A DNA stretch of 64,000 bases from the NCBI GenBank assembly GCA_001915545.1, contig MNQS01000002.1:1-64000 (forward strand), read 5' to 3'. Source of the DNA: Bacteroides sp. 43_108 (GTDB taxonomy: Bacteria; Bacteroidota; Bacteroidia; Bacteroidales; Bacteroidaceae). The notes under the pieces were generated by a model. That model was not told the DNA's origin, ran no database searches, and worked only from the letters and a program-made list of their open reading frames with translations. Below are positions 4,975-61,955 of this stretch, one piece after another. The number at the start of each line of letters is the position of its first letter. Position 1 is the stretch's first letter. Made by a program: the position numbers and the translations under genes.

Positions 4975-5026
4975 GAGGGCTCACAAATAATATTTCGAGG
5001 GCATGCAATTTAAATTATGAGCCCTC
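4975..5026. repeat. Three-box 22-bp-period array A
   Basis: Boxes start at 4975 (GAGGGCTC), 4997 (GAGGGCAT) and 5019 (GAGCCCTC), exactly 22 bp apart. Box 1 plus the next base and box 3 plus the preceding base form a 9-bp inverted repeat (GAGGGCTCA and TGAGCCCTC), so the outer boxes could pair around a 35-nt loop. The first 15 bases are identical to the last unit of the array at 61904-61955. It lies between two divergent genes, at the edge of the AT-rich block. Confidence 0.75.
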
Positions 5027-5210
5027 GTAAACAAAAACATAAGCAACCAGGATAAAACAAGCTAGTAACTGTGGCTGATTTTTTACAGAACGAAGAAAAA
5101 ATGCAATGTAGAAAAAACAGCTTTCAAATTAGCCTCTCCCCTCTCCTTTTCTCATCTTTTGACAAGATAGGATGCGACTCGGCAAAGCCCACCAGAAAAC
5201 TGCGTTTCCG

Positions 5211-9716: not shown

Positions 9717-10316
9717 TCAATCGGCAGATTCGCCAAGATAACCGCTTTTGGCAAGTTCGCCAGCAACAAGTTCAAGCTCGTCCCACCACTCCCGGCCGAA
9801 TGCACGGATAAGCGGTTCGCGCAAGAACTTATAGAGCGGAAGATTCAAGCGTCGGCCTTGTTCAACTGCCGGACGGCATACAGACCATCGATGATAATTG
9901 AGTGCCAGAGAATCGCCGACTTTGCTGACACGAATAGGATAAAGGTGGCATGAAAGAGGTTTCTGTACATTGAGACCATTGTTGCGACATGCACGTTCTA
10001 TGGCACAATAGCAACAACCGTTCTCATGGCATGTAAAGACACAGTCACGTCCATCGACAATGGATGTTACAAACTCGCCATCGCGGTCGACAGTCACAAC
10101 TCCGTGCTTGCGTATTACCGTACGGGCATCTTCTGACAAATCGTCCCAAATCTTCTCTGCGGCTTCTTCCAGTCCGCCGATTTCAGACTCTTCAACAGGT
10201 GCTCCTGCATCGCCTTCAACACAGCATGCTCCGTGGCATGCTGAAAGGTCGCAGCAGAATTTTTCAGTGAAGAGTTCCAATGATACCAGAGTATTGCCTA
10301 TTTCTACGAGACTCAT
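9717..10316 (-). CDS. DUF3109 family cysteine-rich protein
   Basis: The 199-residue product matches the DUF3109 family, common in Bacteroidetes and of unknown biochemical role. It has 13 cysteines, in two groups: Cys21, 22, 27, 31 and 32 (FCCDLSACHGACC) and Cys92, 96, 101, 102, 104, 110 and 123 (CVFTCHENGCCYC and CHLYP), then Cys147. Such spacing suggests a metal site, possibly an Fe-S cluster or zinc as in the related YkgJ-like CxxCC proteins (inference). The cupin gene ends 9 bases upstream, so the two are probably co-transcribed. Confidence 0.85.
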   Translation of the reverse strand: MSLVEIGNTLVSLELFTEKFCCDLSACHGACCVEGDAGAPVEESEIGGLEEAAEKIWDDLSEDARTVIRKHGVVTVDRDGEFVTSIVDGRDCVFTCHENGCCYCAIERACRNNGLNVQKPLSCHLYPIRVSKVGDSLALNYHRWSVCRPAVEQGRRLNLPLYKFLREPLIRAFGREWWDELELVAGELAKSGYLGESAD

Positions 10317-24374: not shown

Positions 24375-24426
24375 GAGCGCTCGCGACGAAAATTCCGAGC
24401 GCGCAGAAATTCAACCGTGAGCGCTC
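24375..24426. repeat. Three-box 22-bp-period array B
   Basis: Boxes start at 24375 (GAGCGCTC), 24397 (GAGCGCGC) and 24419 (GAGCGCTC), each 22 bp apart. The outer boxes are identical perfect palindromes 44 bp apart. Unit 1 matches the unit at 61926 at 18 of 22 positions. The array fills the gap between the ArsR-type gene and the ferritin gene, with the third box 136 bp before the ferritin start. Confidence 0.75.
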
Positions 24427-24562
24427 GGAACATTGACAATATGGCACCATATAAAAACATTGTCAGGCTCAAATATCGAAATATGACAAAATGGACATGC
24501 GGCACATATTTTGTGCGTATGCCGGAAAATACATACAAACAACTTTTAAAACATTCAGAATT

Positions 24563-42435: not shown

Positions 42436-42499
42436 CAGGCATAAAAATTCTGCATACAAGATGTGTTTTTCGAGTCCAAGCCCCATTATGAAAAATTGC

Positions 42500-42551
42500 A
42501 AGCGCTCACGGAATACATTCCGAGCGCGAGCAATGTCGACCACGAGCGCTC
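42500..42551. repeat. Three-box 22-bp-period array C
   Basis: Boxes start at 42500 (AAGCGCTC), 42522 (GAGCGCGA) and 42544 (GAGCGCTC), each 22 bp apart. As in the other arrays the middle box keeps GAGCGC but not the final TC. It lies upstream of the lyase promoter, with the last box near position -55 relative to the predicted transcription start. Confidence 0.72.
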
Positions 42552-61794: not shown

Positions 61795-61903
61795 TACAAA
61801 TATTTTGATAGAAAGCAGCACTGATGTAACAAATATTGCACTTGTCTGAAGTTTTATGACATAAATCTACCATGTAAATGCAGGCGCCCGGCGCTATGAT
61901 TAC

Positions 61904-61955
61904 GAGCGCTCAGAAATTTCTGCGCGAGCGCCCGCGACAAACATTGCGAGGGCTC
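61904..61955. repeat. Three-box 22-bp-period array D
   Basis: Boxes start at 61904 (GAGCGCTC), 61926 (GAGCGCCC) and 61948 (GAGGGCTC), each 22 bp apart. A further, poorer unit (AGGCGCCC) sits at 61882, also in register. The last unit shares its first 15 bases with array A, and the middle one is 18/22 identical to the first unit of array B. Confidence 0.75.

Follow-up and report, generated by a model that had tools for sequence, protein, structure and literature searches.

Intergenic arrays of phased palindromes with a constant 22-bp pitch and species-specific boxes in Bacteroidales

We have found that several genomes of Bacteroidales contain dispersed arrays of three to four short palindromes, here called boxes, which lie between genes and follow each other at exactly 22 bp. 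The sequence of the box changes from species to species while the pitch stays. The explanation which we favour, with a probability of about 0.45, is that they are operator arrays for a putative dimeric DNA-binding protein: its assembly on one face of the double helix would bend or wrap the DNA, and each array would be a chromosome-organising site. We infer in this way a binding dimer, wrapping, an architectural role and a binder which co-evolves with its boxes.

The window, i.e. the whole stretch of 64 kb which was analysed, has four of these elements, each 52 bp long (Table 1). All four loci of the original prediction, which described them as three boxes separated by 14 bases, are confirmed. 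The window has seven exact GAGSSCTC octamers, every one inside the four elements. The pattern GAGSSCTC-N14-GAGSGC has three matches, against none in 100 shuffles; it misses the element at 42500, whose first box is AAGCGCTC. As had been noticed, GAGSGC is retained in the middle box of all four elements, and the last two bases of this box are lost. The 22-bp spacing is indeed invariant: with up to three mismatches over three boxes we find exactly these four places at 22 bp, none at spacings 16–21 and 23–29 in the window and none in 40 Markov-1 simulated windows. Looser searches give one match at 24 bp (up to five mismatches), or two at 24 bp and one at 20 bp (up to six). There is also a weak fourth box one step outside each element, found in all four cases with up to six mismatches over four boxes; the same search has no match at the other spacings between 16 and 29. 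These weak boxes are in line with the four-box form found in relatives.

Table 1. Three-box elements and weak fourth boxes in the 64-kb window
Feature	Sequence	Position	Strand	Location	Flanking genes
Three-box element	GAGGGCTC-N14-GAGGGCAT-N14-GAGCCCTC	4975..5026	+	divergent gap	O-antigen ligase-like; L-PSP family
Weak fourth box	AAGCAACC	5041..5048	+	22 bp beyond element 4975..5026	
Three-box element	GAGCGCTC-N14-GAGCGCGC-N14-GAGCGCTC	24375..24426	+	co-directional gap	ArsR-type regulator; ferritin
Weak fourth box	ATGGCACC	24441..24448	+	22-bp step outside element 24375..24426	
Three-box element	AAGCGCTC-N14-GAGCGCGA-N14-GAGCGCTC	42500..42551	+	co-directional gap	pectinesterase-like; alginate-lyase-like
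Weak fourth box	AAGCCCCA	42478..42485	+	22-bp step outside element 42500..42551	
Three-box element	GAGCGCTC-N14-GAGCGCCC-N14-GAGGGCTC	61904..61955	+	co-directional gap	two genes, both without Pfam match
Weak fourth box	AGGCGCCC	61882..61889	+	22-bp step outside element 61904..61955	

The four elements are placed outside predicted genes, in a window with a gene coverage of 0.82. They are 19.4, 18.1 and 19.4 kb apart, too few distances for spacing statistics. An Rfam search of the window at gathering scores finds one tRNA only. The window encodes a SufBD-family protein; identity with the corresponding match is 67% in RUG849 and RUG14395 and 65% in RUG733 and UBA4361, so that the window is probably near the genus which bears the arrays described below.

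A scan with the exact three-box pattern over one genome per species gave at least 120 stretches. Among the 120 matches listed, 98 come from six Bacteroidales assemblies: UBA4361 (G002; 53), RUG733 (G001; 32), RUG849 (G004; 5), RUG14395 (G005; 4), Candidatus Colivivens caballi (G003; 3) and UBA4301 (G006; 1). Six are found in other Bacteroidetes and 16 outside Bacteroidetes; those inspected in the latter group seem to be matches by chance or simple tandem repeats. Counts over whole genomes, given as forward/reverse, are 81/68 in UBA4361, 51/51 in RUG733, 11/11 in RUG849, 7/6 in Colivivens, 6/2 in RUG14395, 1/0 in UBA4301, 10/1 in TD116_bin80 (G007) and 1/1 in two Sphingobacterium; a control with the pattern reversed has no match in any of the nine genomes counted. 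The pattern is present in one of 393 genomes in an even sample of the order, namely RUG733, and in 6 of 151 in a sample of the family. The enrichment of the GAGSSCTC layout in related genomes, proposed as a check together with the original prediction, is thus found. The test was well chosen but too restricted, since in related species other boxes with the same pitch are in use.

Boxes paired at 22 bp are present in eight out of 13 species of one genus, each with at least one of the tested boxes. Pairs of GAGSSCTC occur in five species (243, 102, 30, 16 and 5 pairs), pairs of AAGYRCTT in four (344, 53, 41 and 12) and pairs of GAAGGCCTTC in a single one (208). The controls with reversed patterns all give 0. 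RUG14395, G546 and RUG733 have two box families within one genome, which a single reader does not account for. G544, G545 and G547 have none of the tested boxes, and G545 has no place with lag 22 in 136 kb; the sites are therefore dispensable.

Other searches give the same pitch. In RUG14395 a looser box, GARSSYTC, with a score cut-off of 23 gives 19 four-box arrays in 378 kb, and 0 both in shuffled sequence and at spacings 18–21 and 23–26; with a cut-off of 22 there are 20 arrays, plus one or two matches at 18, 20 and 24 bp. Five of these 19 arrays belong to an AT-rich GAACGTTC type, and among the five one or two are weak. G403, which is outside the list of the genus, has arrays of AACTAACGTTAGTT. 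G543 has no GAGSSCTC; a self-similarity scan of 140 kb detects 24 places with period 22, of which 14 are arrays of GAAGGCCTTC-type palindromes, with none at spacings 18–21 and 23–26. We also used a scan which is blind to sequence: it looks for similar palindromes at a fixed distance, either 14–35 or 44 bp. At 22 bp it finds 30 cases in UBA4361, 10 in RUG14395, 16 in G543, 36 in the RUG733 loci and one in G544. At other spacings it finds three cases in RUG14395 and one in RUG733 at 44 bp, which is the double pitch, and in G545 a single case at 14 bp and another at 15 bp. With this strict setting there is none in the window, in G546, G403, G440 and G535, in ten genomes taken from other parts of the order (135 kb) and in three of the family (58 kb). 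A looser setting adds at 22 bp eight cases in G546, two in G403 and one in the window, along with one to three matches at scattered other spacings in most sets.

Tandem repeats of other kinds are also found. UBA4361 (L175–L214) and G545 (L235–L241) have many of them at lags 14, 21, 28, 35 and 42, a separate class of repeats. In G543 (L242–L248) there are unrelated tandem repeats with a period of exactly 22 bp, for example near positions 79022 and 41127 of the joined 140 kb, as if this genome favoured a 22-bp repeat unit.

The anatomy of the arrays is best seen in UBA4361 and RUG733. Among arrays located through an exact three-box match, 53 out of 54 in UBA4361 and 31 out of 36 in RUG733 have four boxes; the three arrays examined in Colivivens have three boxes each. 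In UBA4361 the outer parts of the box, GAG and CTC, are nearly invariant (entropy 0.05) and the two central bases are variable (0.79); RUG733 has a fixed CG centre. The spacers had been considered to be mostly diverged. This has to be corrected: in the relatives they are a constrained family and not free sequence, each 14-bp spacer being made of two 7-bp halves drawn from a limited repertoire. AAAA or TTTT stands at the centre of the spacer in 67 of 93 cases in RUG733, but only in 28 of 159 in UBA4361, and the four self-complementary AT tetramers are never present at this position in RUG733. The two halves avoid being mirror images of each other (z from −3.9 to −6.8 in RUG733, from −1.2 to −3.3 in UBA4361). 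Outside the boxes, conservation in UBA4361 fades over about three 22-bp steps on each side, symmetrically, as mirror images. RUG733 arrays have sharp borders and a conserved left flank, and their ends are not matched.

The intergenic position, another point of the original prediction, is also found in the relatives. With a codon-usage gene caller, arrays of four relatives overlap predicted genes in 5 out of 84 cases, with a gene coverage of 83–87%: 3/41 in UBA4361, 0/17 in RUG14395, 1/14 in G543 and 1/12 in G546, compared with 0/4 in the window. The arrays of UBA4361 are distributed more evenly than expected by chance. About 40 of them are found in the 760 kb examined, on contigs which were picked by length after even spacing had been noticed on one of them (C54). 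With two matches inside long ORFs removed (39 of 41 kept), there are 32 spacings with a mean of 17.5 kb and a minimum of 8.4 kb; their coefficient of variation (CV) is 0.52, and arrays placed at random among the gaps give 0.85 (0 of 3000 nulls). Nine other contigs of this genome give, among the matches listed, 18 spacings with a mean of 11.9 kb, a minimum of 4.6 kb and a CV of 0.42, where a uniform placement gives 0.86 (0 of 5000 nulls); six of the 18 are below 8.4 kb, equal to expectation. In G543 the minimum is 5.3 kb (none shorter in 0.13% of nulls) and the CV is not significant (P 0.056), with a rough null in which the gaps come from a cruder gene caller and only 3 of the 14 arrays are placed in gaps. 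When both families of G546 are pooled the minimum is 5.7 kb (0.3% of nulls), and RUG733 has nine spacings among the matches listed with a minimum of 3.5 kb (1.2%); in neither is the CV significant (P 0.15 and 0.30). Spacing is clearly over-even in UBA4361 and suggestive of evenness in the other three species.

A comparison of species shows a turnover of the arrays. In RUG14395, 15 out of 19 arrays have no syntenic pair in the part of UBA4361 examined. In the four that can be compared, three have an array in the same gap and one does not. At the three shared sites the core is 49, 68 and 84% identical beside flanks with 84–97% identity: the core is more diverged than its flanks and the pitch is unchanged. 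No target duplication is visible at the empty site of UBA4361, a single site in a gap which has also diverged. UBA4361, RUG849, RUG14395 and RUG733 all have a four-box array in the gap between a gene for a pterin-binding enzyme and a Mur ligase gene, as identified by Pfam, which by inference are folP and murF. The arrays of UBA4361 and RUG733 in this gap are quite different in sequence, and by our reading of the alignments RUG849 and RUG14395 have an identical 74-bp core. Of the nine further species, the six which could be judged have no array of this box there. Distant species share few array positions, and the folP–murF gap is the only one shared once duplicates are removed. Whole 22-bp units have been gained and lost in the flanks. 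In one shared array the simplest reading is that an insertion and a deletion within one spacer together preserve its 14 bp. Around one array (L002 and L042), UBA4361 and RUG14395 have almost the same intergenic DNA, yet the spacers of the array differ, apparently by compensating indels.

From these features a mechanism may be proposed. The unit would be a palindromic site of about 22 bp for one protein dimer, with a palindromic core of 8–12 bp and flanking half-spacers; the centre between neighbouring units would be AT-rich or an A-tract. Three units, or four in the best-sampled species, would stand head to tail at exactly 22 bp. Since this is about two turns of the helix, the dimers would stand on one face of the DNA; the original suggestion of several protein sites on one face is supported by this deduction from the invariant pitch. 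The aligned dimers would form a disc, a ring or a short filament, which would bend or wrap about 75–90 bp. Their job would most probably be chromosomal architecture, either as anchors or in the control of domains or topology. We consider this more likely than regulation of the adjacent genes, because the sites are scattered, over-evenly spaced and indifferent to their neighbours. The putative reader must shift its specificity between species, because the box changes while the pitch stays.

One candidate group for such a reader is the Lrp/AsnC family. Its operator clusters have semi-palindromic sites two or three turns apart on one face, and Lrp-type octamers wrap DNA, according to the descriptions consulted (PMC2995911, PMC10201364). 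Palindromic sites about two turns apart are what the 22-bp pitch provides, and by analogy these octamers may be the closest working model for the arrays. We compared 26 matches, which fall into three orthologue groups (A–C), and found no protein binder of the arrays among them. In group A, the best conserved, one and the same recognition helix is shared by ten species whose boxes differ or are lacking, so this protein is not a box-specific reader. In group B the helix varies slightly (UBA4361 differs from RUG733, G479 and G440). It varies more in group C, which is present in species with and without arrays. In B and C, which stay as candidates, the helix does not visibly follow the box. A further difference is that Lrp/AsnC clusters, as described, sit in control regions, whereas the arrays are genome-wide.

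The arrays may also be compared with other known systems. Plasmid iterons and the centromere arrays parC and sopC have tandem, helically phased sites with cooperative binding, but they occupy one locus per replicon and here there are dozens along the chromosome. The dispersed palindromic sites matS are bound by an architectural protein, MatP; they are single sites of conserved sequence in one domain, while here we have phased arrays with a species-specific sequence. The closest system by description is the BrickBuilt MITE of Porphyromonas gingivalis, with 19 dispersed intergenic copies of tandem units: 23-nt repeats in variable number, with a leader, a tail and IS-like terminal inverted repeats (PMC4596501). 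It is similar in being dispersed, intergenic and made of tandem units of similar length in a genome of Bacteroidales; it differs in unit length, in unit number and apparently in its ends, and the description consulted has neither a palindromic box, nor a fixed count of four, nor a species-specific box at one pitch (PMC4596501). The near-identical 23-nt units which a BrickBuilt-type MITE requires are not what we find, since the pitch is 22 and spacers differ between units. A CRISPR array, with its identical repeats of at least 20 bp and unique spacers, is also rejected: the repeats here are 8–12 bp long, the spacers are constrained and the copies dispersed. In the literature searched, i.e. top-ranked matches with few subscription papers and no preprints (including PMC5771137 and PMC3119063), the layout is not described.

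REP sequences are palindromes of 20–40 bp (PMC3733652) and BIMEs contain regularly spaced REPs in alternating orientation (PMC2817692). Together with REPINs they resemble the arrays as dispersed intergenic palindromes, lineage-specific and in high copy number; no 22-bp pitch is given in the descriptions consulted. Their form is also different: single palindromes of 20–40 bp or inverted pairs, against three to four palindromes at 22 bp. Nor does a RAYT-type gene follow the arrays. The Y1_Tnp domain (PF01797) has matches in seven of the 13 species, absences being soft as several genomes are MAGs by their title, with completeness not stated. It is found in three of the eight species with a tested box (RUG733, UBA4361 and G479, not RUG849, RUG14395, G543, G546 or G535) and in four of the five without (G544, G545, G547 and weakly G440, not G461). 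The REP-like nature suggested in the original prediction is thus acceptable only loosely, for dispersed intergenic palindromes, and a RAYT link is not supported.

Some individual observations touch on mobile elements. In RUG733 a long AAGCRCTT-type array (L316:1083-1299) is 217 bp away from an IS200-like (Y1_Tnp) match, and in G479 repeats of 21/22 bp (L317:2453-2779) are found near another; the UBA4361 match has no such repeats within 1.5 kb. Gaps between genes in G545 (L219) and RUG14395 (L216) contain an element of about 200 bp which resembles a MITE and whose ends are inverted (GTTCTAAAAATT and similar). Phage contigs have nine matches. Eight of them (L352 and L354–L360) carry one array of three GAGCGCTCC palindromes with a 22-bp pitch, and the ninth (L353) is a GC-rich tandem repeat of 11 bp. 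In L360 (positions 9987-10038) the array lies inside the gene for the terminase small subunit (phrog_1889), just upstream of the large-subunit gene, and by our reading of the translation each box is in a different frame; it is a candidate packaging (pac) site. The phage arrays look distinct from those in chromosomes.

The main rival of the operator arrays is a selfish dispersed repeat, similar to MITEs or REPs, which we regard as a real possibility, if a rather doubtful one. It would spread by means of a putative transposase, with the boxes as its own binding sites, or would be copied from one site to another; copies would be kept apart by immunity or because close neighbours are selected against, and target immunity could underlie their spacing. 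The copies within a species are indeed a homologous family with position-specific spacers, some genomes have more than one family, and one site is empty in a close relative. The sharp borders and conserved left flank in RUG733 fit as well, and so do the repeats near Y1_Tnp matches in RUG733 and G479. However the UBA4361 flanks fade over three units with no sharp end, the single empty site has no visible target duplication and the Y1_Tnp domain is commoner in species without a tested box. The core is also more diverged than the flanks at the three shared sites, though the identical core of RUG849 and RUG14395 should be kept in mind.

An unlikely explanation is that the arrays are a by-product of minisatellite formation, without function, due to slippage between genes with a favoured unit of 22 bp. 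Unrelated repeats with this unit are found in G543, TD116_bin80 also contains 22-bp tandem repeats, whole units are gained in the flanks and some spacers are alike within a RUG733 array (R1/R2, z 4.4). Slippage does not make palindromes, however, and it would leave unexplained a copy number which is mostly four, spacers which are strongly different beside a nearly invariant GAG/CTC and the even spacing in UBA4361. Lags 20 and 23 are nearly empty in this genome; lag 21 is filled, as are other multiples of 7.

It is quite improbable that the boxes are the operators of a regulon under an ordinary transcription factor. Phased palindromic operators are typical of autoregulated factors, and the four elements of the window are each upstream of at least one gene. 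But the genes beside them have no common function, and about 40 arrays in 760 kb of UBA4361 argue against a regulon. The gaps used there are of the same types as the background (convergent in 6 of 37 arrays and in 42 of 298 gaps), and G543 even over-uses convergent gaps (6 of 13 against 13 of 54).

Pairing of the outer boxes in a structured RNA, the remaining suggestion of the original prediction, or in a DNA hairpin is most improbable, and as a conserved constraint it is excluded: the UBA4361 consensus is an imperfect palindrome centred on spacer 2, and sliding the pairing by 1–3 columns gives fewer paired cells, yet any consensus palindrome would do so, and 53 arrays show no covariation, with 74.8% of cells paired in the 1-4/2-3 hairpin against 75.5% when shuffled (470 of 500 as high), box centres which mismatch in 40–41 of the 53 arrays for boxes 1/4 and in 33–34 for boxes 2/3, no complementarity of spacers 1 and 3 within arrays beyond permutation (z from −1.0 to 1.2) and no Rfam match at the array sites.

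We file the arrays with the dispersed intergenic palindrome repeats. Bacterial dispersed repeats are usually recognised by their sequence, whereas here it is the geometry which is conserved, not the sequence; for this reason searches for sequence families miss them. The test for palindromes at a fixed lag is simple, blind to sequence and applicable to any genome. A fixed ruler with a changing palindrome hints at a protein complex which would grip the chromosome at intervals. Returning to the operator arrays, we may tentatively go further and consider them chromosome-organising sites of a new class: three to four phased palindromes, over-evenly spaced, would serve as a 22-bp ruler along the whole genome, in which the specificity of the reader would change by species and the geometry would stay fixed. 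By analogy, and with the same reserve, they could be an equivalent in bacteria of rapidly evolving centromere or insulator arrays. Species of one genus with different boxes would form a natural series, in which the reader could be sought by comparison. If a protein does read the arrays, some Bacteroidales would own an unrecognised chromosome-structuring system with a rapidly changing specificity.
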